Below are positions 19,373 to 46,946 of a stretch of DNA of 64,000 nt, in pieces. The DNA is taken from positions 12,290-76,289 of the forward strand of contig QMRV01000002.1 of NCBI GenBank assembly GCA_003649445.1, read 5' to 3'. Made by a program: the position numbers and the translations under genes. This DNA comes from Thermoprotei archaeon. GTDB taxonomy: Archaea > Thermoproteota > Thermoprotei > Thermofilales > B15-G2. Each line of letters starts with the position of its first letter. The stretch's first letter is position 1. The notes beneath the pieces are model-generated. The model ran no database searches. It was not told the DNA's origin and worked only from the letters and a program-made list of their open reading frames with translations.

Positions 19373-21337
19373 CTAGTGAATAAAGTATAAAGCGAAACTG
19401 AGTGCAGACGACGCTATGTAGCTTAATGAGTAACCTAAAATTACTCCTACTGCAATAGCCCTACCTTCTCTCATATAAAGCCTTGGTCCTCCTAAAGCCA
19501 GAGTAGTTCTCTTGAGTATGTAAGCAAGCAGAGCTGAAAACCACATTCCGTAAAGCGATAACTCTGAAGTAGATAAAACTAGTCCTACAGGGCATATGGG
19601 GAAAGCGAGTATTTTAAGCCTTATCAGCGAGACTATAGATAAGAACAGCATACCGAGTACTAGACTTGTCCACCAATTTTCGCTGACCATTATTTTAGCG
19701 GCGTCCATTAAGAAGTCTGCTTCAGCTTTACCGTACTCGAAGACTATTGTCTTAAGGCCGGGTAAGCTCCCTATACTGTATTCATGTGCTGTTGAAATCA
19801 TAGTATAGTACGCTGAGAAAAGCGAAACTGCCACCGACAATATAGTTAGCTTAGCTAGACTATTTCTAAGTACTCTGACTTCTCTAGGCCTATACCTTGG
19901 CGACGCTATTAGTCGATAGCTTTCAAGTAGAGCTACTCCCGGAGCCAGAATAGAGTAGGAGGCTTCGCCGAGAAGCAGTACTCCGAGAACATGTACTGGC
20001 ACGAAAGCCTGCGACGTAGATAAACCTATGTATTCGCTCAAGTACTGTCCTAGTGCCGCGTTAAATGGTCTTGCAAGCATTACAGGTAATATAAAGCTCT
20101 CTCCTACAAGTGAAAGAATGCCTAAGTAAATGGCCATAGCAAGTATTGTAGAAAGTAGCGAGAACACAATAAGCCCTAGAGAAAATCTGTTTACAGCGGA
20201 TAGTACTGAGAGTCCCGCTATAGCTAAAGCAATTAAAAGGAGAAATTTCCGTGTAGTTCTTTTAGCTAATAAGAATAGTTTTGCTATAGAGACTACTCCT
20301 AAGGAAATAAGTCCTCCGACTGTAATAGCTATATACGGCATGAACAATCCATATCGAAAGTTTTGCAAGACCCATATTCGTCGAGCTCCAAAGGGTAGTG
20401 TTAGTGGAGGGAGCAGATTCGAGTAAACAGCTAGTAGCGGGTACACAACATTAAAAATTATGTAAAAAATCCACCACGTTAGCAGAGTATCCAGTGGAAG
20501 CAAATAGCATGCAGCAATCCACAGCGGATTAATTGATAAAACTAAAACCGCGTTTTGCGCAATAAATACTCTGAGCTCTCTTACGGCCGCTAAATCTATG
20601 GTCATAGTATATCCATAGGCCTGAGGGAACGGAAACAGGGGGAACCATGGTACTGCTAGTCGAATTAAAGCCGGCAAGTTTATCAAAAATGACACTAGCG
20701 CAGAGTATAGGAAAATTCTTCTTATGAGTCCATCCCTCTTGAAAGAATCTCTAATTCCTCTGTATAATGTAATTGTAGGGAACGGCATTTCCTCTAAATC
20801 TACCAATACTGGTGCTAGAATACGGCCTGCCGAAATAGCTAGTAAGCATGCTAAGAAAGCTAACGAAAACCAGTAAAGAAGAGGTACAGTCCATACGCTC
20901 CAGTCAATAGACATAGGAGATGCCATGAGTTTAGCTAAGTACTTTCCGGGCGGTGCCCAGAAGTACGGCCTATATTCAGCTGTAAGCGATCTAAAGGGTT
21001 CTTGATAAGAAAGAAACATTGCTCTGCCGATAGATCCCGCTAGAAGCCATATTCCTCCAATAGAAGTAGACACATATATTGATATATAGACTAAAGCTAC
21101 ATCGAATTTGCTGGGCTTAAAGCCTAGCTCTAGCAAAAGATCAGAGAGAATAGCCAGAAGGAAGAACAGCAATATAGCTGATGAATTTAAGTATACAGGC
21201 AGCATTAATCCTAGTCCCGCACCTCTAATACATATCATTCTAACTGAAATAGAGGATAAAGTCGCTGAAATAAACACTACCAGTGCGTAATTCCTCAATA
21301 TTCTTATCCTGTCTTGCTTTAATATGGCAGTACCCAT
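19373..21337 (-). CDS. OPT-like membrane protein, type A (DUF6785/DUF6784-like), copy 1
   Basis: This integral membrane protein of 654 residues has about 14 hydrophobic segments. It carries the MPFPTITL motif typical of OPT-like carriers and a C-terminal block (CPVGLVLSTSELSLYGMWF, then LGGPRLYMREGRAIAVG) that matches my recollection of DUF6784. The same C-terminal pattern occurs in the 44958-46946 protein (NPVGLFF, FGARAYERVG). It is the last gene of a three-gene operon and overlaps the type B gene by 19 bp. ATG 21337 is preceded by GAGGGGAG, a good ribosome-binding site. Substrate unknown; peptide or small-metabolite transport is an inference from the superfamily. Confidence 0.78.
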   Translation of the reverse strand: MGTAILKQDRIRILRNYALVVFISATLSSISVRMICIRGAGLGLMLPVYLNSSAILLFFLLAILSDLLLELGFKPSKFDVALVYISIYVSTSIGGIWLLAGSIGRAMFLSYQEPFRSLTAEYRPYFWAPPGKYLAKLMASPMSIDWSVWTVPLLYWFSLAFLACLLAISAGRILAPVLVDLEEMPFPTITLYRGIRDSFKRDGLIRRIFLYSALVSFLINLPALIRLAVPWFPLFPFPQAYGYTMTIDLAAVRELRVFIAQNAVLVLSINPLWIAACYLLPLDTLLTWWIFYIIFNVVYPLLAVYSNLLPPLTLPFGARRIWVLQNFRYGLFMPYIAITVGGLISLGVVSIAKLFLLAKRTTRKFLLLIALAIAGLSVLSAVNRFSLGLIVFSLLSTILAMAIYLGILSLVGESFILPVMLARPFNAALGQYLSEYIGLSTSQAFVPVHVLGVLLLGEASYSILAPGVALLESYRLIASPRYRPREVRVLRNSLAKLTILSVAVSLFSAYYTMISTAHEYSIGSLPGLKTIVFEYGKAEADFLMDAAKIMVSENWWTSLVLGMLFLSIVSLIRLKILAFPICPVGLVLSTSELSLYGMWFSALLAYILKRTTLALGGPRLYMREGRAIAVGVILGYSLSYIASSALSFALYFIH

Positions 21338-23160
21338 ACTCCCCTCTGGATAAAAGCTATTATTGAAGCAAATGAACTAACAGCTCCCCAGCCCGCAGTT
21401 AAACCTGAAGTCACGCTTCCTACATATTCTTGCCACTTATCTTTATATATTCTCGACATTAGCTGGCTACTGACTAGAGATCCTATGAATGTTGTTAGAG
21501 CAGCTGAAGGAGCTAGCGATAGACCTGCTACTAGTGAGAAGAAAAGGGCTTCCTTTTTGAAGATATATGCTGTAATATAGCCTATGCCTCCTATAATTAC
21601 TCCCAGTAGTATTATATGCGGCTTAATGATCTCGCCGTGACTCATCCACGAGATGTTTAAGAGGAAATTATAGGCCGATATCTGCCAGTTATATGCTGTA
21701 GCAGGGTAGCTCCATGATGGAATAGGATGTATATACCACAGGATTGTAGTAAAAATAAAGCTGAGAGCTATGCCCATAATTACTGCTAACACTGTGTACT
21801 TGATGTAGTCTCCTGGCTTTACTCCACAGAGTACAGAAGTCTTCATGTTAGCAGTATATCCTGCTCCTCCTGGATCAAGGTATAGCGGATAAATCCACAC
21901 GTCAAGACCCTTATACTTCGACGCTATTATGAGTCCTTCTTTGACATAAGGTATGTTAAAGCTGTAGACTGAGGCACCTATAGAGCTAGCTGATACTAGT
22001 GTAGAGACTAGTGGCCATAGTAGCATGAAACATGCCACTAAATACACGGGAAACTCCGGTAAAGCTAACACTAGTAGCATGATATTTAAGAAAGAAAGAG
22101 CTATAAACAGTAAAAGAGCTCTTGAAGCATACCCTCCCTTACCTTTAGTTACTTGAGCTATAGTAGAGAACACTTCTTTGACAACTTCTCTCTTCAAAAT
22201 AAGCGGTATTAGTGCAGCAGAGAGAGCCACACCTATGTTGAAGCTTGTCCAGAAATTGAACGACGACCATCTAATACAGTAGGAAATATTTGACCCAGGC
22301 ATCCATCTGCCTATAGGGCTACTAGTCCAGTAGCCTGTCACTACGAGCAAATGATTCCCGATTACATATACTAAGAGAGAGCCTATGAGCAGGCATAAAG
22401 CTCTTTTAATAGGAATAACTAGACCTGAAGAGAATGTAAGCAGATTAAAGTCTATGCCTAAAGTAGCTCCGGGAAGAAAATGTTCTACCACTAGAGTCAA
22501 GTCGTAGGTAAATATTGGTAGCAGAGCAGGCACTTGGCGCATAGCAAGAATAGGTATTAGTGTAGTTAATGTTGCATAAAGTATACCTATAATGGCTGAT
22601 ATAGAGAAAAACTTGACTTTAACGGGGTCTTCTCCTACTACTGCTGAAAGACCATCAGCTACAGCTACTTGCATAGGAAAGTCAAGCTTCTCTTTGACTA
22701 CCAGTAATTCATATCCTATATAACCTAAAGCAAGTCCCGATACAGTACTAATAAGAGATGTTGTAACAAAAATCGCTACTATAGGAGCAAAAGTAGGCTG
22801 AATGAAACTTCTTATATTCAAAGCTACTAATGGCTCTTGGGGAAACCACCATATAATTTTGGTGAAACTGAACTCTTTCGAGAAAGGGCTCCACACTATA
22901 TAGCTGTAGTAGAGAATATTGTAGAATAGAAGAGCTTGACCAGTAATAACAGGCAATAGTACCTGTATTAAGAATGCTTCACTTCGAGTAAGCCTTTTCC
23001 CTAGCCAAAGAGCTATTTCTGAAACAGCTATTACTATAAGCCAAGCGTTTATTTGTGAAAATCCCGCTCCTATTAGATTCGAGTAAAGTATTAGAGGAAT
23101 AATTATCGCTGAGAGAATAAAGAGAATAAGAAAAACTGCACTACTCCTCAAGCTTCTCAC
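21319..23160 (-). CDS. OPT-like membrane protein, type B, copy 1
   Basis: This polytopic protein of 613 residues has about 14 hydrophobic segments. Shared blocks with the 38416-40323 protein show clear paralogy: IPYVKEGLII versus IPYIREALLL; HPIPSWSYPATAYNWQ versus APIPSAMYPWTAISWP; and C-terminal RGVWVLPY versus RSIWGAPY. LDFPMQVAVADGLSAVVGEDP is the OPT-like substrate-path segment. The start is GTG 23160, inside the end of the M28-FtsX gene (20-bp overlap); TTG 23151 is an alternative. It is translationally coupled on both sides, so it probably works in a complex with its neighbours. Confidence 0.78.
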   Translation of the reverse strand: MRSLRSSAVFLILFILSAIIIPLILYSNLIGAGFSQINAWLIVIAVSEIALWLGKRLTRSEAFLIQVLLPVITGQALLFYNILYYSYIVWSPFSKEFSFTKIIWWFPQEPLVALNIRSFIQPTFAPIVAIFVTTSLISTVSGLALGYIGYELLVVKEKLDFPMQVAVADGLSAVVGEDPVKVKFFSISAIIGILYATLTTLIPILAMRQVPALLPIFTYDLTLVVEHFLPGATLGIDFNLLTFSSGLVIPIKRALCLLIGSLLVYVIGNHLLVVTGYWTSSPIGRWMPGSNISYCIRWSSFNFWTSFNIGVALSAALIPLILKREVVKEVFSTIAQVTKGKGGYASRALLLFIALSFLNIMLLVLALPEFPVYLVACFMLLWPLVSTLVSASSIGASVYSFNIPYVKEGLIIASKYKGLDVWIYPLYLDPGGAGYTANMKTSVLCGVKPGDYIKYTVLAVIMGIALSFIFTTILWYIHPIPSWSYPATAYNWQISAYNFLLNISWMSHGEIIKPHIILLGVIIGGIGYITAYIFKKEALFFSLVAGLSLAPSAALTTFIGSLVSSQLMSRIYKDKWQEYVGSVTSGLTAGWGAVSSFASIIAFIQRGVWVLPY

Positions 23161-26100
23161 CCTCTTTTTCCCTCAACTTGTTTTCAATAAGCTCAACTAT
23201 ATCGGGTACAATACGTCTTTTAATTTTCTTAGCACCTAGGCCTTTGCCTGCTATCTCTAAGACTATATATGTTTCTCCATCTACTGTAATTGGCTTAAAT
23301 ACTATTTTATAGAAGAGGAAAAGTTCTCTAGGCAGTATTTGAACTAATAGAGCAAGATACTCGCCTGTTCTTTTTCTACGTTTAATCAAATACCCGTGTT
23401 CTTCTGTCAAAGCCTCTTTGACGACCTCTTCGATGAAATCAAGAGCTCTAGGTAAAGGCTCTTCTATTTTAATCCTATATTCGACTGGAACTGCCTCTAT
23501 AGCAGCTTCTCTTAATTCTCTTACTTTCCTCGAGAAAGCCGTCGACAGTGAAACTGGAACAAAGCCTATAAGACAGCTAACTATAGGCGCCAAAGTTATG
23601 ACACTAGGCTCACATAAACCAAGTTCAGCTAAAGCTAAGTGTACTACATAGCCTAGGATTCCTCCTATGAAGCTTGCTTGAAGAGCATCAGATGTAGTAA
23701 ACTCCTTTTCTACCGATGCGACTATAAGAATAATTGACGAAAAGAAAAGTACAAGTATTAAGAAGAACCGATTTATTATCTTGAATCCGAGTGCATGATG
23801 AGCTGCGACAATATATCTTTCACCGTCTACTGACAAATAAACGTAGACTCCATCAAAGATATAAGCTAGACGACGTGCGTACTCTACTAAAAGCTTACTG
23901 TTGTTAAACGATATAGCTACACTATAAATATTGCCGTCCATTTCGCGGGCTAGTTCATCCGGCACTATAACTATGTACTTGGGAGCTGTATGTACCGGAA
24001 TTTCCTCACTCCTAGGAATCATTATGTCTCTCGGAGTTATTAGCTCTCCGTCTAGGTCTTTAAATACACTCAACATGCTTTCATTAAATATCCCTACCAC
24101 TTTCAGCCTAAGTCCATATAGTACAACTTCGTCTCCAACACTAATATTTAGTGTTTTAGCTAAGAAAGAGCTAACTATACACTCCTTCGCGAATTCACTA
24201 CTAAACCAGCCTCCCTTGACTATAGCTTTTTTTATGTTCGATATCTTCACTTCCTCTAATCCCAGCCCTAAGAACGCTTTGAGAATAGTCATATTGCTTA
24301 CTCGAACTTCACCATAGTGAGGATAAGCCCATACTCTCATAGAAGAGTACCCGCCGAGAGCTTTGACTTCGCTCCTGATTATATCGTATTCAGCCTCACA
24401 TAGAACACTCCACGGAAAAGTCCTTATCATTATGCCGCTATAAGACCCTTTGGCCCCTAGCCTAGCTTCACTTATATGAGTTACATATGTAAGATTACCA
24501 GACATAAAGAAACTTACTGAAGTGGCAAGAGATAAGAGAAGTATTTCTGCAAAAACTCTGCGAGAAAATACTCTAGGAGGCTTTCTTTTAATCTTCATTA
24601 TTTGAGAAAGAAAAGTCTTAAGTAGCGATATGACAACAACTATTATTACTAACAGAGCTCCAGCTGAAGGAACTATAAAGAGGCCTAAAGAGCATGCTCT
24701 TACAGACGGGTGACATAGCGAAATTACGAATAGCGATAAAGCAAAACAAGTAAATGCAACAGTATTAGACGACTTTCTAAACAAAAGCTTCAATCTCATA
24801 GAAGCTATGAAAAGCAGTACAACAATAACTATTAGTGCAAAACCTATGTCTCCTAACAGAAACTGGAAAGAATTATACGCATGGGCCTCCATAGCCCACG
24901 CTCTTAACATCGACGCATAGGCTACTCCATACTTTTTCTCTCTTAGAAGTCTTCTGCTTTCATTTATTAAGACTCCTGCTTCTTTGTGATAGTCTAGAAC
25001 TCTATAGCTGTATACTCTGAGCGTCTTTATCCTATAGTCTAGTATTGTATAAAGAGTACTTGCTGCCACAAGAGGAAAGTTCTCTAACAAAATTTGCTTA
25101 CCTTTCTCAATAGAGTAGCCCTTTCCTAAAGGATTCTCGGGAGAAGCATTATTTATTACTGCGACTACATCGAGTCCTCTTTTCATAACTACTTCTATTC
25201 TTGTGCCAGCTGGAAGAATAAGTACTTGAGAATACCAGTACCAGTATTGAGGCCCCCGGCTTATCAGCGCCGTATGATAAGTAGCATTAAGAACCGAGAA
25301 AGACAAATATCCTGGAATAAAGAACCTAGGATCATATGCATTAGTAATAACAAGTGAGCCACAGTCAGTTATTCTAATGTTTACTTCAGAAATAGTCTTA
25401 TAGACACTAACACCGAAAAGCATGGGCAGTACAGGCCCTAATCCACCATACTCATTAGCTGCTTCAACAGTTCCTTCTTCATTTAGCCTAAATCCTAAAA
25501 GCCAGTAGTATCCACTGTATCTCACTCCCTTAATTATGAAAGTCCCATTAGAGTCTGTTAGCACTCCTATGTGATAAGGCCACATAGGTAAAGCCACTAT
25601 AGCTGAAACTGGTTCAAACCACCCCTTTGTTCTATTGTACCTATACACTCTTCCCTTTATGTACGAAAATCCGTATCCTACACCTCTTGTAGTAGGGGTT
25701 GAGGAAGGCATTTTCTCTGAATCCTTTGTAAAACAATAGATGATAGAGAGAGCTATTTTAGCTTGTTTTTCCGCAAAATCTATGTCTGCATGCTCTAAAG
25801 TATCATATGGCGTGTATAGCCATGGTCTAAAGCTGTAAAATGTTCTTAAAGTGAAAGCAGGTATGCCTGTTAAAGCGAATACTTCGCTGTCTAAGAAACA
25901 GGGAATTGGCTCGTAAAAGAAGTACGTAAGCGACAATGTATCGTATACAAATACTTTTTCTCCAAGAGCCTCATCTATCGAATCCATGTATCTGATCATA
26001 CGGTCTCTTACCCACCTATATCTAGCCTCATAGCCTGGAACAAAGGCCAACAAGTTATAAAACAAACCATAGTACTGTGCAGCTAGCTCTGAGCCTGTCC

Positions 26101-27097
26101 AATCTAAATCAAGCTCTACTACAAGCCTTATTCTAACTCCAAGTTCGTTAAAATGCACTGAAACATATTCTCTAGCCCCAGCCAAAGCCAAGCCATGAGC
26201 CCCAGTAATCAAAATTGCTATACTTCTCTTAGGCTTTAACTTAAGGAAGAGTCTAGCTAGTTCAAGTACAAGAGCTACGTTAAATGCTTCTGAAGCCCCC
26301 GGAGCTTTTGCTGGAACTGGAGAAAGAGAGTCTACATGAGCTACTATACACACAGCCTCCTTAGACAAAATTACATCTGTTCCCGGAATCATGGCCACAA
26401 TATTTGTAGCAGTTACTTCACGCCACTCGACCTTAGAATATATTTTTACATGATACCCCTTTTCAGCGTACTCAATTAATTTTTCTCCCACTTCTTTATC
26501 AACATATAGTCTAGGAAAATATGCTGGCATATGAAAGACTTTGAGCCAGGCATCGAACCTCAAAGTAGACTTATTCTCTATGAAAACTACAGCTTTAGCA
26601 CCCAAGGAAAAAGCATTCGTCCAGAACCATCTACAGTTGAAATCCAGTAAAACAATAGATCCCTCTAAATCTCTTCCGTTGAAATCAAGAAGCTTTCCTT
26701 TACCTCCGTAAACGATTCTCCCCTTGTAATCAATATTAGACGTCACAATCATGTTGGGCCAAAGCGCATGAGCCTCTAAAACTTCGCCTGTCTCAATAAC
26801 CTTTATATATACTTTTTCTTCTATAGGAGAAGTTACAGAAAAATTCTCTAGAATATACCCTACGCCGATTTTCCTAAAGTATTCAGCTATAAATCTAATT
26901 GCCTTATAGTAGCCTGGATAACCTGGTACACGAGATCTATAGCTAGAGAGTACTTTAGTATAATTCCACACTCTATTGAAGTCTATTGAAGAAATAAAGC
27001 TTCTAAGATCAAAAGGATTTTCTTTGCCCAGTACTTCGGGCTGAAGAAATACTAGAAGTATCATCAGTAGCACTAGAGCTCTGTATAATTCCTTCAT
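23141..27097 (-). CDS. M28-peptidase-like/FtsX permease fusion, copy 1 (P protein)
   Basis: The 1318-residue protein has a signal peptide (LVLLMILLVFLQPEVLG). An extracytoplasmic M28-like domain runs from about residue 40 to 450, with an inserted PA-type domain (GRIVYGGKGKLLDFNGRDLE). A carboxypeptidase-regulatory-like fold follows near 475-560. The C-terminal half has membrane helices, a MacB-type core (NISVGDEVVLYGLRLKVVG) and FtsX-type helices, then a charged cytoplasmic tail. The first M28 ligand His254 (AHVDSL) is present. GASEAFN (269-270) replaces the ligand Asp, His301-Gly302 stand where the Glu-Glu pair belongs, and Tyr/Leu replace the last His near 426 (WLYTPYDT). Peptidase activity is therefore doubtful. 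First gene of the operon; box A near 27127-27137. Confidence 0.82.
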   Translation of the reverse strand: MKELYRALVLLMILLVFLQPEVLGKENPFDLRSFISSIDFNRVWNYTKVLSSYRSRVPGYPGYYKAIRFIAEYFRKIGVGYILENFSVTSPIEEKVYIKVIETGEVLEAHALWPNMIVTSNIDYKGRIVYGGKGKLLDFNGRDLEGSIVLLDFNCRWFWTNAFSLGAKAVVFIENKSTLRFDAWLKVFHMPAYFPRLYVDKEVGEKLIEYAEKGYHVKIYSKVEWREVTATNIVAMIPGTDVILSKEAVCIVAHVDSLSPVPAKAPGASEAFNVALVLELARLFLKLKPKRSIAILITGAHGLALAGAREYVSVHFNELGVRIRLVVELDLDWTGSELAAQYYGLFYNLLAFVPGYEARYRWVRDRMIRYMDSIDEALGEKVFVYDTLSLTYFFYEPIPCFLDSEVFALTGIPAFTLRTFYSFRPWLYTPYDTLEHADIDFAEKQAKIALSIIYCFTKDSEKMPSSTPTTRGVGYGFSYIKGRVYRYNRTKGWFEPVSAIVALPMWPYHIGVLTDSNGTFIIKGVRYSGYYWLLGFRLNEEGTVEAANEYGGLGPVLPMLFGVSVYKTISEVNIRITDCGSLVITNAYDPRFFIPGYLSFSVLNATYHTALISRGPQYWYWYSQVLILPAGTRIEVVMKRGLDVVAVINNASPENPLGKGYSIEKGKQILLENFPLVAASTLYTILDYRIKTLRVYSYRVLDYHKEAGVLINESRRLLREKKYGVAYASMLRAWAMEAHAYNSFQFLLGDIGFALIVIVVLLFIASMRLKLLFRKSSNTVAFTCFALSLFVISLCHPSVRACSLGLFIVPSAGALLVIIVVVISLLKTFLSQIMKIKRKPPRVFSRRVFAEILLLSLATSVSFFMSGNLTYVTHISEARLGAKGSYSGIMIRTFPWSVLCEAEYDIIRSEVKALGGYSSMRVWAYPHYGEVRVSNMTILKAFLGLGLEEVKISNIKKAIVKGGWFSSEFAKECIVSSFLAKTLNISVGDEVVLYGLRLKVVGIFNESMLSVFKDLDGELITPRDIMIPRSEEIPVHTAPKYIVIVPDELAREMDGNIYSVAISFNNSKLLVEYARRLAYIFDGVYVYLSVDGERYIVAAHHALGFKIINRFFLILVLFFSSIILIVASVEKEFTTSDALQASFIGGILGYVVHLALAELGLCEPSVITLAPIVSCLIGFVPVSLSTAFSRKVRELREAAIEAVPVEYRIKIEEPLPRALDFIEEVVKEALTEEHGYLIKRRKRTGEYLALLVQILPRELFLFYKIVFKPITVDGETYIVLEIAGKGLGAKKIKRRIVPDIVELIENKLREKEGEKLEE

Positions 27098-27203
27098 CTT
27101 AGACGTAGGGCTTTCTCTAAGCCACTAAATATAAAACTTATCTCTTCAGAATAGATGTAATTTTACGGCTCTACTTCAGTTCTGTAAATAATTAAGCTCT
27201 TAA

Positions 27204-27257
27204 TCAGCCCGGAAACCTCAAGTCACCGCTCCTATCTGCAATGGCTCATCATCTAAG
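27204..27257 (-). ncRNA. C/D-box sRNA candidate 3 (weak)
   Basis: On the minus strand a good C box (ATGATGA, 27246-27252) and D box (CTGA, 27204-27207) are 38 nt apart. The internal D' and C' boxes are degenerate; TGACTTGA near 27216-27226 could serve as C'. A TATA-like ACTATAT lies about 25 bp upstream. The rest of this 284-bp gap (27098-27381) holds only the two flanking promoters. Confidence 0.35.
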
Positions 27258-27345
27258 AGGATATTGCGCTCTACTCTGATATAGTTTTCGCATAGACTGG
27301 TCTTCAATTAAATGATGAAAATCTATTCCTCTATTATGAGAAAAA

Positions 27346-27353
27346 TTTAAATA
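27346..27353 (+). promoter_or_regulatory. Box A promoter of guaB
   Basis: TTTAAATA lies 29-36 bp upstream of the GTG at 27382 in a strongly AT-rich run, matching the archaeal consensus perfectly. Confidence 0.6.
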
Positions 27354-27381
27354 TTTTACTTAAATAATAGCTCCCAAAAGG

Positions 27382-28803: not shown

Positions 28804-28805
28804 CT

Positions 28806-30362: not shown

Positions 30363-30411
30363 CCATGACAATTATATATTTATAGCTAAATTCGAGTAAT
30401 ATCTGTAGCAC

Positions 30412-35066: not shown

Positions 35067-35118
35067 AGGTAAGTATTGTCTCAGAGTTTATTAAATCTTA
35101 ATCGCTAACACTAATGTA

Positions 35119-35667
35119 ATGCTGTTCGAGTACAGTAGAGTATATGTTTTCGACATAGACGGCGTGCTAGTAGATGTAAGAGATAAAATAAGAGCAGTTA
35201 TGGAAGAGTTAGGTGTTTACGCAAAAGATCCTCGAGACCTTGATATCAAAACACGGTCTAAGTTTTGGAAGCTGTTTTTGTCAGAAGAGTACATTATATA
35301 CGATAAGCCTAGACAGGTTGGAATAGACCTCCTTTTAGATAGAATAGAGAAGGGGCATGTAGCTATAGTTACCGGTAGACCAGCTAGTCTTAAGAGGGCT
35401 ACTTTAAGAGAGCTGAAAGATTACGGCGTGCCTGTATCTAAAATATCCTTCTTTTTTAGAAGAAGAGAAGATTTTAGAAAAGATTATGAAGTAAAGTTTG
35501 AGATAATAAAGTCTCTCAAAAATGTTTTAGAAGTTCACGATGATTCTATTGAAGTATTAGAATATTTAGCTAGATTTCTTAAAAACACAAAACTCTATTT
35601 ACATTTTGACGACAGCTTTACTCTTTTTACGAATAAATCTGCTAGTCTTAAAGAGCCCAGGGTATAG
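35119..35667 (+). CDS. HAD superfamily hydrolase
   Basis: A haloacid dehalogenase-type phosphatase. Motif I is VFDIDGVLVD with the nucleophile and acid aspartates; motif II is VTGRPA (Thr). The later HDDSIEVLEYL carries the acidic metal ligands. At 182 residues with a small helical cap, it fits a small-molecule or nucleotide phosphatase. The last 69 bp overlap the convergent P-ATPase gene, so either stop region could be read differently; both frames are otherwise intact. Confidence 0.8.
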   Translation: MLFEYSRVYVFDIDGVLVDVRDKIRAVMEELGVYAKDPRDLDIKTRSKFWKLFLSEEYIIYDKPRQVGIDLLLDRIEKGHVAIVTGRPASLKRATLRELKDYGVPVSKISFFFRRREDFRKDYEVKFEIIKSLKNVLEVHDDSIEVLEYLARFLKNTKLYLHFDDSFTLFTNKSASLKEPRV

Positions 35668-38307: not shown

Positions 38308-38415
38308 TCCCCCTCTACCTATCTGAGAGAACTAATATGCGTTACGCTAATCATATCAAGTAAATATTAAATCAAAATAAAGAAAAGTGAAATGCTAAAA
38401 TATTCTCTAAATATT

Positions 38416-40323
38416 TTAGTAGGGCGCTCCCCAAATGCTTCTGCCTATGAGCAGTATTGCTACTGAGAGACCTACTGCTAGTCCTGTACCACAGAACAGT
38501 CCAGCTATTATTACTGATCTCAGTACTTCCCAGCGCTCTTTACCTACTTTCTTCTCAATGTATCTCCCTACAAGTGCTCCAAGGAAGTAGTTTAGAGCGA
38601 ATGGCGGGACCATGCCTGCGCCAGCTACGAAGCCTAAGTAGTTGAACGGCAGCTTGAATTTCTCTGCAATAGCGCTTACAACGAATATCAGTACTGTTGC
38701 TCCAAGTATCTGGTCAGGCTTGAATATCTGAAATGATCTCGAGACCCAGAGAGCGAAGTTTAGAGACTGCACTGGCCATGAAATAGCTGTCCACGGATAC
38801 ATTGCTGAAGGTATAGGAGCCATTGACCAGAATAAGCTCCAGAACACGAAGCTCGCGAAGATTATTATCGGTATGGCTATTACTGATGCCTTGTAGTAGT
38901 CAATAGGCTTTGTCTTAGTTAGCAGAGCTACTTTAATCCTGTGTGCTATTATACCAGCCGCTGTAGTTGTCTTACATGGAGCCATCCAGGGGTCTACGAA
39001 ACCTGGAGGTGTTGTAGCCAGCAGAAGTGCTTCACGTATATAAGGGATACCTGTACCTATTCCTATTTCAGCAACCATTCTTCCTACTAGTATTGCCTGG
39101 AGGAATGGTACTACTGCCCATATGAAGACCCATACGTACCATATCTGCGGCACTAGCAGACAGTCTATCGCTATTCCTAAAACTATACCTGTGATCCACA
39201 TCGCTAAAACGTACTTCAGTGAAAGGTATCCTTTGGCTCTAGAAACCTCTGTTAGTCTCCTTAAGCTTTCGAGAGCTTTACCCATGTACTTGAGCGATCT
39301 TGCGAAGATATACAGCGATGCGCCTAGCGAGAGTCCTATGAGCGGGCTAGCCCATATATTGTACATGCTTCTCTGCCATAGCCAGCTTATGCTTAGCCCT
39401 GGTGTCCACTCTCTCTGCCACTCAGCGAAAGCTGGTAGCGGTAGCTTTAGTGCCAGGAAGTTTCCTATAACGAAGGTTGTTAAGCTTCCGATGAAAATCC
39501 ACATAGCGGCGTCGAATGGCACTACCCAGCCTACTACGAACATTGAAATGTCTGTAGCTAAGCCGAACATTGCTCCTGGCAGTACTTTCTCTATGAGGTA
39601 CGTTAGGTCTATCCAGGGGTAGGGTATGAAGTATATCTTCGTCTTGAGAAATGTTTCAGTTATGCTGGGTATTCCGTACAGTATGAATTCGTAGATAAAT
39701 CCAATAACTGCTGCTACCGAGAACCAAGTTATTTTCTCAGGTGTTCTCTCTGTTAGTGTCGTTATTGCCTGAGCGTCGATTGGAGCTACTGGGTATGGCA
39801 AGTTCTCTATTTCGATGAACAGCTGAATAAGTATGAATGATAACGCGAAGTCTATAAGCGTTCCTGCGGCAAAGCCTATTAGTGATACTGCTATAGGCAT
39901 GGCCCACTCAAGAGCAATAAATGTTCTGAATACTGCTCCGTAGCTTGTCAGCGGTGGAGCAGCCCATGTAGGTATCTTGTCGGCCAGCCCGAATAGCTTA
40001 GTGTAGGGTGCTTCTCTCAAATACAGATTGTATATTAATCCGCCAAAGTAGGGCGCGTCGAATGCTACCATTTCGGCCATGAAGTATATAATGAAGGCTT
40101 CCTGGCTTGTGACATATCGGTAGGCGAATCGTCCTACCTCAGTAAATAGAAGTAGAGTTATGAAAACAGGTATGAATCTCACTACGTCGCTGACACCGGC
40201 TACTATCTGCAAGAAGATGACTACTGGAGTCATTACAACTGTTGCGTAGAGTATGGCGAAGAGCGATACTGGCGTTAGGCCGGGCTTAAATTCTTCTATT
40301 TCTTTTCCGCCGGCCTCGGCCAT
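38416..40323 (-). CDS. OPT-like membrane protein, type B, copy 2
   Basis: About 635 residues with around 14-15 hydrophobic segments, an OPT-like carrier paralogous to the 21319-23160 protein. Shared landmarks are listed there; it also has the ENLPYPVAPIDAQAITTLTE segment. The frame runs up to GTG 40332, but ATG 40323 is preferred because GAGGTGA at 40329-40335 is an ideal ribosome-binding site. It overlaps the M28-FtsX gene's stop codon, so it is translated with it. The pairing with a P gene on the same strand repeats the arrangement of cluster 1. Confidence 0.8.
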   Translation of the reverse strand: MAEAGGKEIEEFKPGLTPVSLFAILYATVVMTPVVIFLQIVAGVSDVVRFIPVFITLLLFTEVGRFAYRYVTSQEAFIIYFMAEMVAFDAPYFGGLIYNLYLREAPYTKLFGLADKIPTWAAPPLTSYGAVFRTFIALEWAMPIAVSLIGFAAGTLIDFALSFILIQLFIEIENLPYPVAPIDAQAITTLTERTPEKITWFSVAAVIGFIYEFILYGIPSITETFLKTKIYFIPYPWIDLTYLIEKVLPGAMFGLATDISMFVVGWVVPFDAAMWIFIGSLTTFVIGNFLALKLPLPAFAEWQREWTPGLSISWLWQRSMYNIWASPLIGLSLGASLYIFARSLKYMGKALESLRRLTEVSRAKGYLSLKYVLAMWITGIVLGIAIDCLLVPQIWYVWVFIWAVVPFLQAILVGRMVAEIGIGTGIPYIREALLLATTPPGFVDPWMAPCKTTTAAGIIAHRIKVALLTKTKPIDYYKASVIAIPIIIFASFVFWSLFWSMAPIPSAMYPWTAISWPVQSLNFALWVSRSFQIFKPDQILGATVLIFVVSAIAEKFKLPFNYLGFVAGAGMVPPFALNYFLGALVGRYIEKKVGKERWEVLRSVIIAGLFCGTGLAVGLSVAILLIGRSIWGAPY

Positions 40324-40328
40324 TCTCC

Positions 40329-40335
40329 TCACCTC
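40329..40335 (-). promoter_or_regulatory. Ribosome-binding site GAGGTGA for type B copy 2
   Basis: On the minus strand GAGGTGA lies 5 nt before the ATG at 40323, complementary to the 3' end of 16S rRNA. It decides the ATG 40323 start over GTG 40332. The TGA stop of the upstream gene is inside it. Confidence 0.6.
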
Positions 40336-43300
40336 AGAGTAGATAAAGCCTTCTCTATATACTTGCGCCTCTCCTCAGGCCTTAGGAGACGCCATGTCAA
40401 GAACTGCTTGCGTAGCTCGTCTATATAGCCTAGGTTGGAGTTGACCCAGTTTACGTAAGGTCCGCTCAGTCTCTTTAAGACTAATGTGGTCACGTACTTT
40501 CCTTCAGTCTTGCTTCTATATAGTACTAGTAGCGATTTCTGCCTAATGTTCAGCTCGTAGGGCGGCAGCCATATTATCGACTCTATTCCGGCTTTCTCCT
40601 GCTCCTTAAACATTCTGTGCTTCACTACAGTATATGCTCCTGCTCTCTCAATGGTGTGCTCTCTGTATATTTCTGAGAGGTAGTAGACTAGACCCAGTAC
40701 TTCATTGAAGTCTAAGTAAGTGAATGGTAGTGGTATTTCCCACTCATCTCCTTTAGGCTTTGTCGGAGGCTTCCAGCGTCTCTCTAGGCTTGGTGTAACT
40801 AGCTTGGACACCTTATAGAATGGATAGAGTGAAGCCGATAGAACCATGATTATAACCATGCCTATCGAGAAGATCACGCTTGTTGAAGTGTAGTTTACTC
40901 CGACGTACTCTGGCAGAATGTGGTATGCCGCGAAGAATCTAGCGCCTATTAGTCCTAGAGCGTATCCTATCGATGCTCCTACGAGAGCATATACGACGTT
41001 TTCTGCGAAGAACATTCCTGAAACATGTATTGGCGATAGACCTAGAGCGCTGAGTATTCCTGCTTCTTTCATTCTCTCGTAAGTGTTTCCAAGGATTGTT
41101 GTCAGAATTACTAGGCCTCCAATGACTATTAGTGGAATAACCATCGAGAAGCCGCTTACTACTTGCACGTAGGCTTTAGCGTATACTTGTACCCTATCCG
41201 AGAGTCCTGCGTGGACTATTAGTCCGTCCATGCAGGAATACATCATTTCAGCCTTCTTTACTATCTCAGAGTCAGGTGCAGAGGTAACTACTGCTACTGA
41301 GGCTAGGTAGGATCCTGGCATGGCTTTAGCTATGCCTACAGGTATCAAGACAAGAGAGCTCCACTTTACTCTCACTTCAGGGTCGAATACCTGTAGTACT
41401 GTCAGCTCTTCTCTGAAAATTGGCTGGAGTGAGCAGTAGCCGTCTAAGTCTATTAAGCCTTCGCTTAAAGCTATATCGTCGAATATTCCTTTCACAATGA
41501 ATCTTATACCGTTTAGCCAGACTGTGTCTCCAATGTGCAGTCCTAGTGCGCTGGCTACACTCTTGGGTACGATACACGCGTACTCGTAGTCGCTGTCAAA
41601 CCAGCTTCCTCCGAGCCAAGCTTTCGTTAGTAGGAAGTCTCCTAGAGCATACTTTTCGTTGACTGATACTCCAACTATTGCTCTCAGATACATTGTCTGG
41701 TTTTTAGCGAAGAGCGAGAATGTACTTTGAGAAACTTCTCTCTGTCCTAGCTCGGGGTATACCCATACTCTCTCGCATACAATTGCGTTGGGGAATAGCT
41801 CTTTAGCTATGTAGATAACATTTTCTTCTATTGGAGTGAATCCTACTGACTCTATTAGAATACCTTTGTATAGTGGCTTTCCTGGACGGACGTTTCCTTT
41901 GAGTACGACCACAGGAGTAACTGAAGTTAGCGATACTAGCGAGAATGTAACAGCTATGACTGTGAATAGTGTTAGCAAAGTTCTCAGCTTTCTTCTCTTC
42001 ATATGCTCAATGCCTATTAATAAGGCTGAGACAATCATCTCTAGTCTCGAGCGCTCTAGGAAGTGGAGTCCTATCTGACTCTTTCTAATTTCGCTTACTC
42101 CGAAGGACGCTTGGGAAATAACTAGTACTAGTACTGGTGCGACGAGTACTAGTACTACTGTTCCCGTGATCAGAGCAGGAACACTTCCTATAATGCTGAA
42201 ACCGGGGTGTAGAGCCCATAGAATAGTGAAGAATATGATACCTATCGCCACAAGTATTGTTATTCTGCTGAAGCCCTTCATTTTGCCTATGAGCTTCTCC
42301 ATGAGCACTATTGAGGGTAGAATTATTAGGAGAGCGAATGTTATGCTGAAAGCAGCGTCAAGGTATACGTCTCTTGATCGCTCATAGGCTTTTAGCGCGT
42401 AGCCCCATGCTAGTAGCGACTGATAGTATGCCTTAGCATACTCTTTGCTCTTAATGCTCGCCTCACTTTCGGCTAGGAATGAATTAGCTAAAGTAAAGTA
42501 GTTAGTTAGCGCTGGATCAAGTATCTTGTAGACAGAAGCTATATGATATCTTGGCTGGGTAATTGAGAGTAACTCTTTGGTGTAGAGGTGAGGAGCTATA
42601 GTAATGTACTTTACTTCTCCTATTTTATTGAAGCTGTAGCCTTTACCTAAAGGTTCTTCTGGAGTAGAGTTACAGACTATTGCTCCTATGAAGGCTTGGC
42701 CCGTGAACTTAATGATAGTTACGAAGCGTATGTTGGGTGGAGCAAATACTAATAAAGTAGAAGTTAATGGGTCATACGTCCAGCCATAAGACATTAGCGG
42801 ATTGAAGGCTTCTGCTTGAAGAACTTCTGCTGAGACCTGGGTGTCGTACGATGCATAAGGTATCGGATTAGTGGGCGACTTAAATGGTGACAAATAAATG
42901 TTTTTCTGCAAAGTATACGGATATATTACATCAGATACTACTAGAGTAGAGCACTCAAAAACCACTGTTCTACTCCTCTGCAGATCTTCTTTTACTTCTA
43001 TTACATGCGGGTATACACTCGTCCCGTAACTTCCTTCGTCAGGAGCATATGTTAGTCTTCCTGTCTCGTCGCTTACTACATAGGCCTCCACATATACGTT
43101 GCCGCATGCTGCGTGGGTTGAAGGAGCACCTACTATGAGAGCCGTTCCATTTTCGTCAGCTCTCGCTAAAATCCAAGCAAACATATTGTATCTATTGTAT
43201 GCTGCAGCGATAGAGTACCAGCCTGTTCTCTTTGATACTACAACAATAGCATTTGGCACTGGTCTATAGAGCTTTGGTGTTGTCGGGTCGTATCTAACTA

Positions 43301-44807
43301 CTTCTACTATCAGTCTATCATAGCCGAAGTTTGCTCCCGTCGCTATTAGTTTTAATCTAGAAGGCTTTATATCACTCCAAGAGCCTCTATATATATTGTC
43401 TGGAGTGGCCTCTGTTACTAGCTTCTTTAAATAGTAGCTTATAAAAATCACTTGATCTCTTAAATTATTTAAGTTTACTTTGTCGAAGGTATCAAACGGC
43501 GTCAACCAGAAGCCTCTCATGTCATAAAGAGTCAAAAAAGTAAAAGCAGGGAGTCCTGCAACATTAAATGGTTCTGTGTCAAGAATATAAGGCATTACAT
43601 ATCCAGAGCCCCAATTACTTGCAGTAAGTCCTAGTAAGTTTTTGAGCTCATTGCTTTCTATTCTTGAGTATACATCACTGTATTCTTGCTGGAATTCGTT
43701 TAAGACTTCTCTGGAGAACATAAATATTGATGTGAGGAGTCTATCGTAAAGATTTGAATGAGCCATAGCGTACATGTAGCCTGTGACCGCGAAACATACT
43801 TTATTAGTGCTAGTTGATAGGTCTAAGCCTATAGCTAAGTAAGGCTGTATTTTAGTGCCTACTTCTTCGCTGAACAAGTATTCTTCTACAAAGTATCTTG
43901 CTCCAGCTAGCCCTTGCCAGTGGCTTCCTATAGCGACTATACATACTGTGAATTTAGGTTTAAGCTCTTTTATTATTCGAGCTAGCTCAAGGAGAGTAGC
44001 TATTCCGCATGCTTCGTCTGCTCCAGGGCTTAGTGCTGGAACATACGAAAATGAGTCATAGTGTGCTAGCAGGTAAATTACTTTATTGGTGTATTCGCTT
44101 CCCTCAACTGTGGCAATAATGTTTATTCCCTTTACTTCTTTCCATATATGACCTCCATAAATTGTTGCTGTAACTCCTTTCTTAGCTAGCTCTATTAACT
44201 TAAGCGCTACATCACCTTTAGCGTAGAATCTTGGAAAAGGTATTGGAGCACCTATAGTCAGACTTCTTTCTAGTCGTAGTCTATCTACTTCTTTTGTCTC
44301 GAGAATAATTATAGCTTTAGCACCTAGCTTCATTGCATTAATCCACTTGTCACATCCATCAATATCTATGAGAACTATTGATCCAAAGATATCTTTTCCG
44401 CTCATTTCTTCGAGTGAGCCCCTGCCTACATAAACTAACTTGCCTGTGATTCCTTCAGGCGGTGCTTTTGATGGCGCCACTAAGTTCGGGTAAACTGAAT
44501 ATAGTTCATATGCCTCGCCGCCTACAGTTAATCGAGTGTTGCTCTCCACCGGGACAAGGACTTTAAATTCCTGTATTTTCGGCTTTAAGCCAAGACCACT
44601 TAAATACTTTTCAATATATTCTGCAGCCTTGTAGTATCCTTCAGTTCCAACAAATCGCGACTCCAGGCTCACGAAGAATTCTATGTGTTTAGCTATATTC
44701 TCAATGCTTATTTCTGTTGTTATTTGAGGAGCCATTGTTGCAGTAAAACAGATTATATATGGGAATGTTAGCAGCAAAGCTAGTATTAATACTAATTTAT
44801 TCGACAT
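40329..44807 (-). CDS. M28-peptidase-like/FtsX permease fusion, copy 2 (P protein)
   Basis: The 1492-residue protein repeats the plan of the 23141-27097 protein: signal peptide (LVLILALLLTFPYIICF), PA-containing M28-like domain to about 460, beta-rich regions, membrane helices, a MacB-type core (LHIGDTVWLNGIRFIVKG) and an FtsX bundle. The junction TPSLERRWK leads to a cytoplasmic tail. His249 (AHYDS) and Asp264 (GADEACG) of the metal site are kept. The Glu-Glu pair is replaced by His296-Trp297 (GSHWQGLAG), and Leu replaces the last His near 433 (FWLTPFDT). A helical AEASIKSKEYAKAYYQSLLA block near residue 795 has a counterpart in the two other large permeases. It is likely an extracytoplasmic binding protein or altered peptidase; see findings. 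Confidence 0.82.
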   Translation of the reverse strand: MSNKLVLILALLLTFPYIICFTATMAPQITTEISIENIAKHIEFFVSLESRFVGTEGYYKAAEYIEKYLSGLGLKPKIQEFKVLVPVESNTRLTVGGEAYELYSVYPNLVAPSKAPPEGITGKLVYVGRGSLEEMSGKDIFGSIVLIDIDGCDKWINAMKLGAKAIIILETKEVDRLRLERSLTIGAPIPFPRFYAKGDVALKLIELAKKGVTATIYGGHIWKEVKGINIIATVEGSEYTNKVIYLLAHYDSFSYVPALSPGADEACGIATLLELARIIKELKPKFTVCIVAIGSHWQGLAGARYFVEEYLFSEEVGTKIQPYLAIGLDLSTSTNKVCFAVTGYMYAMAHSNLYDRLLTSIFMFSREVLNEFQQEYSDVYSRIESNELKNLLGLTASNWGSGYVMPYILDTEPFNVAGLPAFTFLTLYDMRGFWLTPFDTFDKVNLNNLRDQVIFISYYLKKLVTEATPDNIYRGSWSDIKPSRLKLIATGANFGYDRLIVEVVRYDPTTPKLYRPVPNAIVVVSKRTGWYSIAAAYNRYNMFAWILARADENGTALIVGAPSTHAACGNVYVEAYVVSDETGRLTYAPDEGSYGTSVYPHVIEVKEDLQRSRTVVFECSTLVVSDVIYPYTLQKNIYLSPFKSPTNPIPYASYDTQVSAEVLQAEAFNPLMSYGWTYDPLTSTLLVFAPPNIRFVTIIKFTGQAFIGAIVCNSTPEEPLGKGYSFNKIGEVKYITIAPHLYTKELLSITQPRYHIASVYKILDPALTNYFTLANSFLAESEASIKSKEYAKAYYQSLLAWGYALKAYERSRDVYLDAAFSITFALLIILPSIVLMEKLIGKMKGFSRITILVAIGIIFFTILWALHPGFSIIGSVPALITGTVVLVLVAPVLVLVISQASFGVSEIRKSQIGLHFLERSRLEMIVSALLIGIEHMKRRKLRTLLTLFTVIAVTFSLVSLTSVTPVVVLKGNVRPGKPLYKGILIESVGFTPIEENVIYIAKELFPNAIVCERVWVYPELGQREVSQSTFSLFAKNQTMYLRAIVGVSVNEKYALGDFLLTKAWLGGSWFDSDYEYACIVPKSVASALGLHIGDTVWLNGIRFIVKGIFDDIALSEGLIDLDGYCSLQPIFREELTVLQVFDPEVRVKWSSLVLIPVGIAKAMPGSYLASVAVVTSAPDSEIVKKAEMMYSCMDGLIVHAGLSDRVQVYAKAYVQVVSGFSMVIPLIVIGGLVILTTILGNTYERMKEAGILSALGLSPIHVSGMFFAENVVYALVGASIGYALGLIGARFFAAYHILPEYVGVNYTSTSVIFSIGMVIIMVLSASLYPFYKVSKLVTPSLERRWKPPTKPKGDEWEIPLPFTYLDFNEVLGLVYYLSEIYREHTIERAGAYTVVKHRMFKEQEKAGIESIIWLPPYELNIRQKSLLVLYRSKTEGKYVTTLVLKRLSGPYVNWVNSNLGYIDELRKQFLTWRLLRPEERRKYIEKALSTLR

Positions 44808-44957
44808 AGAGAGACACCGAAATACTTATCCGAGGTTTTAATATAAATATTATCTTTGGAAGAAGAAAATTTCCTGAATAGAGAAAAATTCAGAAAACTA
44901 CTCTCGAGAGATGAAGTAAAATAGTATTTTGAATAAATGTAAAAAATCTTAAGAAAT
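44808..44957. other. AT-rich gap between type A and P genes, copy 2
   Basis: 150 bp without an ORF. It contains a TATA-like TTTATATT (minus strand, about 44841-44848) for the P gene. A small weak hairpin is formed by CTGAA and TTCAG near 44874-44893. Confidence 0.4.
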
Positions 44958-46946
44958 TTATGGAGCTTTCATTAGTGTATATCCTGTCATTCCTAGGAAC
45001 GCTCCTAGGCCTAGGCCTGTTACGAATCCTACTGCTAGAGGCACTCCTACTCTCTCATAAGCTCTAGCTCCGAAGACTTTAATTGTGATTACTTTAAGTA
45101 TAAATGCTATACCTACGTTAATCAGCCACATTCCGTCATAGAAGAAGAGACCTACTGGGTTCAGTATGAACCATGGGAACTTAGTTCTTAGGAACCACAG
45201 TACGCCTACTATTATGAACGTTAATACAAGGAATCCTGCATGTTCTTCCGTGACTGTATAGCCTGCTCTAAGGACATAGGACATCTGCTTGCTTGTAACG
45301 AATCTGCCGTCGCCCATACCCCAAGCTAGGCCCAATTTATTAATTCCTACACTGCTTGCGTAACCTAGTACCTCCCATGGACCTATAAAGGTCATTACTA
45401 GAAGTGCGATGAGCATCGCTAAGAATATGTCTTTGCCTCTTACTTTGAGGTGTTCTGCTATGGCATAGCTTGAGAGGAAGCCCCATACTGTTCCTGATGA
45501 CTGGTACGCGAGGCCTGGCAGTGTGTAAGACACCATGGCGCCTAGAGCCCAGCTACTTGTTGACTTGTATGGGTTGCTTGGGTAAATTCCTAGAGCCATT
45601 CCTGTCTGGTAAGCGATAGACTGCATGTATATCCAGCTGCCACCTAGTGACGGCCATGTACCTGACTCTCCTACAATCTTAGCTGAACCAATGCTGTCTA
45701 TTATCCAGACTAGTAGCGCCACGAAAGCTACTATTGCTGGAACACCAACGTAGCTCCAGAAAGCAAGGTAGATAATAAATACTGCTATAAAGCCGCCCCA
45801 CATTAGCAGCGGCGGTATTTCACCTGGCTCGGGTTTTTCTCCTCTGATAGCTTTCACTAAGCTTTCTTTATAGGTCTTTAATCCGAAGATTATTGCGAAG
45901 ACACCTATTGCTATTGGCACATTATATCTGGCGATTCTACTCCACTGGAATGGTCCGCTCGAACCAATATTTGTACCTGCTGGAACAATTCCTGCCGATA
46001 CGAAGGCTATCGGTAAGATTATTGCACATAAGAATGTCCAGAGAGTTCCAGTGAATAAGATATCGAGAGGAGCCAAATAGAACACTGCCACGTCAGCGGG
46101 AATAAACATCCACCATCCCTGGATAGAGGGGCATACACTTTGCAGAAAGCTTCCGAGGGTGGGACCTAGATAATACTGGCCCCAGGCGAAGAAGATTGGG
46201 AAAATTGGTGCGATGTAGTTCATTACGGAGATTCCAGCTACAATTAAGCCTATAATGAAGCCTACGTAGAATGGTATCATTTTACTTACTTGGAACAGTG
46301 ATTTTTCGACTACTCCGTACTTGACCACTTCTACTAGTGGTAGTACGTTGGGGAAGGGTATTTTTTCTACTTTAATGTGATATTCTCTAATAATAGTTGC
46401 TATGAAGAACACCAGTAGTAGGTAGAGCAGTAATGTAAATATCGCCAAGCTTACGTAAGGCATTAATGGGCCGAAATTTACTCCTCCGCCTGTATAAAGC
46501 GGCTCTACTAAGCTTGGGTCTTTAGGTGTCCAGTAGTCTGGCATTAATTCCCATAGCTCTTCGACTTGAGGGTTCTTCAGGGCTTGATAGGTTGCTGCGA
46601 TTGGTATTTCAAGGAATGTCATTATGACAAATGGAGCGTCCATTGTTATGAAGACCATTGCTGATATTATGGCGATTTCTTGTGCTGATAGTTTACCTCG
46701 CATGAAGTATGCTAGTATGGCCAAGAGGAACGCTAGGGCAAATGGCGGGTAGAGCGCTGAGCCGATTCGTCCAGCGAACCATGGCTCTAATGTTACTCGA
46801 GCGCCCAGCCAGCACATCGTGTTTATATATGTACCTATTATTACCAGAATTATACCTAGACCTAGGGCTAAAGGAGTTAGTCCCTTTTGATACTCTACTT
46901 TTTTCTCCTCAGTTTTAGCTTCCGAGCTCACATTTTTTACTCGCAT
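44958..46946 (-). CDS. OPT-like membrane protein, type A (DUF6785/DUF6784-like), copy 2
   Basis: The frame extends to 47081, but the first 45 codons are very basic, contain no likely start signal and would overlap the divergent reverse gyrase start. The ATG at 46946 (MRVKNVSSEAKTEEKKVEYQ) gives 662 residues, almost the same length as copy 1 (654). It has box A-like AACCTTAAAT about 26-34 bp upstream. The protein has about 14 hydrophobic segments, KIPFPNVLPLVEVVKYG, and the DUF6784-like C-terminal block (NPVGLFFYDGMWLINVG, FGARAYERVG). It completes a second A+P+B set, although it precedes the P gene instead of following it. Confidence 0.8.
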   Translation of the reverse strand: MRVKNVSSEAKTEEKKVEYQKGLTPLALGLGIILVIIGTYINTMCWLGARVTLEPWFAGRIGSALYPPFALAFLLAILAYFMRGKLSAQEIAIISAMVFITMDAPFVIMTFLEIPIAATYQALKNPQVEELWELMPDYWTPKDPSLVEPLYTGGGVNFGPLMPYVSLAIFTLLLYLLLVFFIATIIREYHIKVEKIPFPNVLPLVEVVKYGVVEKSLFQVSKMIPFYVGFIIGLIVAGISVMNYIAPIFPIFFAWGQYYLGPTLGSFLQSVCPSIQGWWMFIPADVAVFYLAPLDILFTGTLWTFLCAIILPIAFVSAGIVPAGTNIGSSGPFQWSRIARYNVPIAIGVFAIIFGLKTYKESLVKAIRGEKPEPGEIPPLLMWGGFIAVFIIYLAFWSYVGVPAIVAFVALLVWIIDSIGSAKIVGESGTWPSLGGSWIYMQSIAYQTGMALGIYPSNPYKSTSSWALGAMVSYTLPGLAYQSSGTVWGFLSSYAIAEHLKVRGKDIFLAMLIALLVMTFIGPWEVLGYASSVGINKLGLAWGMGDGRFVTSKQMSYVLRAGYTVTEEHAGFLVLTFIIVGVLWFLRTKFPWFILNPVGLFFYDGMWLINVGIAFILKVITIKVFGARAYERVGVPLAVGFVTGLGLGAFLGMTGYTLMKAP

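Follow-up and report, generated by a model that had tools for sequence, protein, structure and literature searches.

A recurrent three-gene cassette of an M28-like/FtsX protein and two OPT-like membrane proteins in Thermoproteota

Do three membrane proteins whose genes lie together twice on one archaeal contig work as one transport system? The question is raised by a stretch of 64,000 nucleotides of contig QMRV01000002.1 (GCA_003649445.1) from a Thermoprotei archaeon, here called the window, whose positions serve as coordinates throughout. Two gene sets are found in its list of open reading frames (ORFs), both on the minus strand, and each consists of a giant protein with an M28-like domain ahead of a permease-like membrane part (P), an OPT-like membrane protein (B) and a DUF6785-type membrane protein (A). 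A preliminary description of this DNA had regarded them as a duplicated machine, perhaps for the import of peptides or other small molecules. The observation itself is stronger than first claimed, as a multi-copy, co-diverging three-gene module is present in many genomes of the phylum. To the reading that the three proteins of a cassette form a single membrane uptake system, we give about an even chance.

Linkage and shared divergence of the three genes

The presence of P, B and A in each of two clusters is confirmed by the ORFs, by the recurrence of both clusters in the nearest relative and by the recurrence of the set across the phylum. The ORF coordinates (Table 1) bear out the overlapping genes described for cluster 1 and, for cluster 2, the P/B overlap with A just upstream on the same strand; the motif blocks quoted for A and B are present in the translations. 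Transcription runs in the order P1-B1-A1 in cluster 1, with overlaps of 20 bp (P1/B1) and 19 bp (B1/A1), and in the order A2-P2-B2 in cluster 2, where A2 and P2 are 150 bp apart and P2 overlaps B2 by 4 bp. The sister genome G001 (contig QMSB01000001.1, 'Thermoprotei archaeon isolate B15_G2') carries both sets on one contig (loci L001/L066 and L067).

Profile searches for A, B and P were carried out in 101 genomes of the phylum. Matches of at least 224 bits for B and at least 430 bits for P were taken as strong, and all counts of P matches rest on the best five P candidates per genome. P rows below 430 bits, one A row under the cut-off and 29 B rows below 224 bits were dropped. The latter comprise short pieces, frames with stops and A-family genes; G016, G056 and G065 are hence not counted as B genomes, and one of the B-like rows of G056 has several internal stops. 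Some match to the P profile occurs in 91 of the 101 genomes, mostly as short FtsX or M28 stretches among the matches listed. Strong B matches are found in 17 genomes, A in 19, strong P in 18 and all three in 17. Thus the co-occurrence in archaeal genomes that the preliminary description had proposed to look for extends to all 17 strong-B genomes, each of which also has A and P (Fisher p 4e-16 to 2e-18 for the three pairs). When the seven genomes first reached through B are set aside, all ten B genomes among the 94 still have all three (p ≤ 8e-11).

The genes are also neighbours. For the 67 strong B matches, some of them fragments, P lies within 6 kb in at least 46 and A in 45; both partners are that close in 36 cases, P only in 10 and A only in 9. 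B occurs within 300 bp of 43 of the 56 P matches. Moreover, of the 11 loci found through B, 10 have P immediately upstream of B and 9 contain A (one of these loci, L002, starts inside P). A closer view is offered by 36 complete sets, selected from the retrieved DNA as those in which a P longer than 1250 residues has A and B no farther than 3.5 kb away. P and B lie on the same strand with a gap of at most 12 bp in 33 of these sets and overlap in 23, although start codons were assigned mechanically and the overlaps may shift slightly. A is on the strand of P in 33 sets. Single genomes contain up to eight strong B matches.

The three proteins have diverged together. Spearman correlations of pairwise distances among the 36 sets amount to 0.627 (A-P), 0.621 (B-P) and 0.507 (A-B), and none of 2000 shuffles of partners within genomes reaches these values, the maxima being 0.545, 0.534 and 0.486, respectively. 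The pairing is therefore not merely species history. The pairing check proposed earlier is thereby addressed, here with distances rather than trees, and for all three proteins the nearest relative of each window set is the matching set of the sister genome. A recent duplication of one unit is rejected, because B1 and B2 are only 28% identical (E 3e-59) and each cluster is closest to its sister-genome counterpart. Judging from these sequences, the window carries two out of several ancient cassettes that have diverged deeply, its two clusters differing in gene order, and the word 'duplicated' of the preliminary description does not hold in the sense of a recent copy.

A simpler explanation would be that A, B and P are co-inherited neighbours only, acting independently on related substrates and never forming one complex. 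This would suit the A genes that occur alone in many places and the variable order and orientation of the genes (A-P-B, P-B-A, A-B-P and divergent). However, it leaves unexplained the P-B adjacency with its frequent overlaps, the correlated divergence of all three pairs beyond within-genome shuffling and the complete genome-level co-occurrence, and we consider it quite unlikely. Linkage, co-occurrence and co-divergence together support one three-part system.

Several observations nevertheless weigh against such a system. A occurs without B in two genomes (G024 and G031), and G056 has P without a strong B. Neither A nor P lies within 6 kb of 12 of the 67 strong B matches, and 7 of the 56 P matches have neither partner within that distance. 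Similarly, a partly matching B-type ORF of 524 aa (L011, 9629-11203; G011:C16) has no P or A despite available flanks; it is possibly a remnant. Above all, A is often alone, with B within 8 kb of only 48 of 102 A matches, so A can presumably work without P and B. The earlier proposal of one machine thus stands in that the three families belong together, as co-occurrence and co-divergence indicate, and gives way in that their standing is unequal, P and B being mostly adjacent and A often solitary. In loci L080-L099, DUF6785 genes are found without P or B nearby, some of them beside GH4 glycosidases, with up to 13 A matches per genome; these lone genes possibly encode stand-alone OPT-fold transporters. 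Relatives of B or P also include proteins named after Gemmatimonadetes, Planctomycetota and Desulfobacterales; two tblastn searches of plasmids with bacterial relatives found nothing.

An M28-like domain without peptidase residues and two OPT-like partners

The M28-like domain of P is clearly recognised by Pfam (51.3 bits in P1 and 57.9 bits in P2, against a cut-off of 21.3), whereas PA and MacB_PCD matches stay below the cut-off in both proteins. P1 and P2 share 26% identity (E 6e-84). For a survey of active-site residues, 103 distinct P-family proteins (86 archaeal-type and 17 others) were aligned, proteins of at most 1250 residues and identical copies being left out. Glu is present at either catalytic Glu position in none of the 103, which speaks against the peptidase reading that the term 'M28-like' used at first invites. 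In alignment with aminopeptidase structures, P2 has His-Trp and P1 has His-Gly in place of the Glu-Glu pair, and the last metal-ligand His is replaced by Leu in P2 and Tyr in P1; at this last position, His does not figure among the six residues most frequent in the 86 archaeal-type proteins and is absent from the 17 others. The Asp of the HxD motif (Asp251) is invariant in the 86, and His takes the general-base position of the catalytic Glu in 76 of them. The bridging Asp is kept in 34 and replaced by Glu in 23, and it is missing from P1. The cleft thus seems, on these residue patterns, to be under selection without known catalysis, and a cleft that is kept while its catalytic residues are gone would suit a binding role. 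The N-terminal hydrophobic segment suggests that the M28-like part is located outside the cell.

A working cell-surface aminopeptidase that trims peptides for import by A and B would make the cassette a peptide-scavenging operon. P is clearly homologous to M28 aminopeptidases such as 2ek8, the source name 'M28 family peptidase' is attached to 2 of 72 P homologues, and OPT transporters are best known for peptides. Additionally, Brockarchaeota are reported to encode a broad set of extracellular peptidases, many of them with no substrate that could be identified (PMC8065059, in excerpt). The replaced Glu pair, the replaced last His and the lost bridging Asp of P1 disfavour an active peptidase, with the caveat that Glu follows one place behind the lost pair in some members (GHWEGLAG), and His one place behind the lost His in a more distant subgroup (GHPADT), so that the active site of P may be rearranged. 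Taken together, we hold peptide scavenging to be highly improbable. The presence of M28 entries without catalytic glutamates in databases bears on inferences of protein degradation by these archaea.

What the cassette might transport was approached through neighbouring genes. Proteins encoded nearby include glycoside hydrolases, Gfo/Idh oxidoreductases, URO-D, radical SAM proteins and a carbohydrate kinase, and Pfam tallies of the neighbours suggested sugar metabolism. The tallies cover 78 of 137 entries, all 106 for A-only loci and 73 of 77 for cassette loci (four of L111, repeats of L109, being left out); they include the 25 commonest families only, and many of the genomes are related. Placement tests, in which rounded genome sizes were used, gave a mixed outcome. 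Gfo/Idh is not enriched: among 150 matches listed out of a larger number, 5 have an A, B or P gene within 3 kb, where 6.1 would be expected. For GH42, 7 of 41 matches have such a gene within 3 kb, the expectation being 1.8 (p 0.002), but four of the seven look like a single orthologous position. When distances are taken from B and P only, 2 matches are found at 3 kb (1.1 expected, p 0.29) and 7 at 5 kb (1.4 expected, p 0.0005). For GH4, 6 of 66 matches lie near A; the expected numbers are 1.4 within 2 kb (p 0.003), 1.85 within 3 kb (p 0.01) and 2.8 within 5 kb (p 0.06). All six stand beside A genes without P or B nearby. As a weak hint from these tests, sugars or glycosides are slightly favoured over peptides as substrate. 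The tests yielded no positive evidence for a peptide substrate, and the peptide import suggested at first receives no direct support from them, GH42 and GH4 being modestly enriched.

The partners of P are harder to place by sequence. B1 scores 25.6 bits for Pfam OPT, just below the cut-off of 25.8, and no OPT match is obtained for B2, A1 or A2. B2 has no Pfam match at all, but PF03169 is carried by 18 of 50 of its homologues. A1 matches DUF6785 (31.8 bits) and DUF6784 (40.6 bits), and A2 matches DUF6785 (57.1 bits); the two A proteins match each other in the C-terminal part only (E 1e-6), and the B profile matches some A-family genes weakly. As the B profile found no match among PDB sequences, structure models were used instead. 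The predicted models of A2 and B2 share the fold of barley YS1 (PDB 7wst/7wsr) over 532 and 550 aligned residues, with identities of 12-17% in the structural alignments. A2 and B2 are thus predicted to have the OPT/Yellow-stripe fold, and the cassette would hold two different OPT-fold proteins. In this way a DUF6785 protein gains a predicted fold; no mention of DUF6785 or DUF6784 was found in open-licence PubMed Central papers.

The FtsX part and a possible working scheme

The permease part of P follows the M28-like domain at a distance of several hundred residues. Pfam FtsX is matched by P2 (52.8 bits) and by F (51.7 bits), a separate protein encoded 711 bp from A1, and not by P1. The M28-like/FtsX fusion first described is recognised by Pfam in both halves of P2; in P1 the M28-like domain is fused to a degenerate FtsX-type membrane part that has no Pfam match. 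The hallmark of type VII ATP-binding cassette (ABC) permeases, an FtsX-type transmembrane (TM) domain with a coupling helix between TM2 and TM3, is present in P2 and not in P1, TM segments being assigned by hydropathy. P2 and F keep a segment of the form ER..E....S..GL.P, which corresponds by position to the major coupling helix of MacB. That helix lies between TM2 and TM3 and communicates with the ATPase (PMC5985334, in excerpt), and the coupling helix of FtsX touches FtsE (PMC7468199, in excerpt). The segment is kept in 34 of the 36 P proteins of the complete sets, 30 matching the pattern and 4 having a variant form; only P1 and its L067 orthologue are without it, the columns being deleted.

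These features invite the view that P belongs to a true type VII ABC machine of the LolCDE/MacB/FtsEX kind that acts on envelope molecules and draws on an ATPase supplied in trans. A and B would be auxiliary transporters, regulated or loaded by this machine, and ATP rather than an ion gradient would drive the main step. The FtsX matches of P2 and F, the sub-threshold MacB_PCD matches and the widely kept coupling helix fit this view, as does YbbAP-TesA, in which a type VII ABC transporter is paired with a hydrolase (PMC12646458, in excerpt). Furthermore, LolD-like ATPases are encoded elsewhere in all ten genomes searched. However, all these matches are below the LolD cut-off and LolD-like ATPases are also present in all 14 control genomes, so they are not specific. 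An ATPase-like ORF lies within 5 kb of just one of the 36 sets (L069; motif search of the retrieved flanks), and the P1 cassette persists in two genomes although P1 is without the coupling helix. We regard the type VII ABC view as possible, if on the unlikely side. The scarcity of neighbouring ATPase-like ORFs and the unspecific LolD-like matches also count against the three-part uptake system, in which ATP coupling in trans may nevertheless occur.

F has no M28 match; over 434 aa its FtsX part shares 31% identity with P2. Six of 14 F-like rows share a locus with an A, B or P gene at distances of 0.6-5.3 kb (window, L064, L070, L072, L073 and L107), the L064 row being an ORF cut by the locus end and part of a 1207 aa frame; no such gene is present in the remaining eight loci. 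In the window and in L067, L070, L072, L073 and L107, A, P or B genes have an FtsX protein of about 1000-1060 aa that lacks M28 encoded a few kb away or less. In L067, F is represented by two ORFs that meet at the border of the FtsX part and the C-terminal domain. Neither F nor the loss of the M28 catalytic residues figured in the preliminary description.

In the three-part uptake system that we favour, the pseudo-peptidase domain of P would capture a small molecule and pass it to the A/B pair. A and B could act as two unequal protomers of an elevator transporter, modelled on the identical protomers of barley YS1, a homodimer for which an elevator-like, proton-coupled mechanism is proposed (PMC9691689, in excerpt). 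The FtsX part of P might couple receptor to transporter, either passively or, through the coupling helix, via a LolD/MacB-type ATPase encoded elsewhere. In cluster 1, where the coupling helix of P1 is gone, F may supply it; on this hypothesis P1 and F would form a LolC/LolE-like pair and cluster 1 a four-part variant. Different cassettes may serve different substrates, which would explain the several diverged cassettes per genome. A bolder hybrid may also be conceived, in which an ATP-driven type VII ABC permease with a dead-peptidase receptor mechanically gates an OPT-fold elevator heterodimer, the peptidase fold having given rise to a broad family of solute receptors. We think this unlikely; if it were true, secondary-transporter folds would be worked by ABC mechanotransmission.

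Window features and comparison with known systems

The features of the two clusters are collected in Table 1. For A2, the mechanical ORF spans 44958-47081; the shorter form, with the start chosen in the preliminary description, is preferred, as four relatives have 645-657 aa.

Table 1. Features of the two gene sets and of the genes next to cluster 1, in window coordinates.
Feature	Position	Strand	Description
P1	23141-27097	minus	1318 aa; M28-like pseudo-peptidase with N-terminal hydrophobic segment and degenerate FtsX-type membrane part; coupling helix deleted
P1 M28-like domain	25745-26404	minus	residues 232-451; bridging Asp to Ser, Glu-Glu to His-Gly, last His to Tyr
B1	21319-23160	minus	613 aa; OPT-like membrane protein
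A1	19373-21337	minus	654 aa; DUF6785/DUF6784 membrane protein
Small ORF between A1 and F	18950-19267	minus	105 aa; without Pfam match
F	15501-18662	minus	1053 aa; FtsX-type protein without M28 match; possible fourth component of cluster 1
A2	44958-46946	minus	662 aa; DUF6785 membrane protein; predicted OPT/Yellow-stripe fold
P2	40329-44807	minus	1492 aa; M28-like pseudo-peptidase with N-terminal hydrophobic segment (hydropathy) and FtsX permease
P2 M28-like domain	43461-44123	minus	residues 229-449; His249, Asp251, Asp264 and Asp329 kept; Glu-Glu to His296-Trp297, last His to Leu435
P2 FtsX C-terminal domain	40800-41141	minus	residues 1223-1336
P2 coupling-helix segment	40998-41087	minus	residues 1241-1270
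B2	38416-40332	minus	638 aa; OPT-like membrane protein; predicted OPT/Yellow-stripe fold; C-terminus Pro-Tyr

The surroundings of cluster 1 are kept in the sister genome, where the A1 counterpart is followed, as in the window, by a 105 aa ORF, by F (there as two ORFs of 770 and 271 aa) and by a 349 aa ORF. The likeness of the 105 aa ORFs consists in length and place. The 349 aa gene of the window is a Gfo/Idh gene by Pfam, and the corresponding sister ORF also has a Gfo/Idh match. Directly downstream of B2, the window carries an ORF (35599-38307) that we take to encode a P-type cation ATPase from its DKTGT motif; in the sister genome, the 914 aa ORF that follows B (L001) is a P-type cation ATPase by Pfam. 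Elsewhere in the window, adjacent LuxC- and LuxE-like genes (acyl-CoA reductase and acyl-protein synthetase) lie at the end (62006-63981), and a 435 aa protein (1812-3119) matches the neutral ceramidase N-terminal domain. Rfam and tRNA scans of the 64 kb gave no match, and NCBIfam gave none above its curated cut-offs for seven window proteins and eight relatives.

The preliminary description knew of no system with these three parts, and none was found in open-licence PubMed Central papers; the parts come from known superfamilies, in a combination for which no description was found there. ABC importers consist of a binding protein and two permeases. The likeness to them is one of working only, an extracellular binder with two unequal membrane subunits, as the folds are unrelated, the binder is here fused to a permease-like part and the operon has no ATPase. 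Type VII ABC permeases (MacB, LolCE, FtsX and YbbP) resemble P2 and F in the FtsX domain and the coupling-helix sequence. In the cassette, however, the motif search of the flanks shows no ATPase-like ORF within 5 kb of 35 of the 36 sets, an M28-like domain stands ahead of the permease part and the linked genes encode OPT-fold transporters. In YbbAP-TesA the hydrolase is separate and active, as far as the excerpt of PMC12646458 goes, whereas in P a pseudo-peptidase is fused to the FtsX part.

Compared with the M28 aminopeptidases to which it is homologous (2ek8, YwaD), P lacks the catalytic glutamates, is fused to an FtsX-type part and is linked to OPT-fold genes. M28-like non-peptidases include nicastrin and the transferrin receptor; nicalin, another of these, is among the weak sequence matches to P2 (E 0.004). 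CA_C2195 is a further metallopeptidase-like protein proposed to be a non-peptidase (PMC4000134, in excerpt). Lastly, the likeness to OPT/YSL transporters such as barley YS1 lies in the fold of the A2 and B2 models and in the OPT score of B1 just under the cut-off. YS1 is built from one protein twice, whereas the cassette links two distinct OPT-fold proteins with a giant receptor-like protein; if the three-part reading is true, it would represent a multi-subunit OPT-fold transport system with a dedicated receptor in uncultured archaea.

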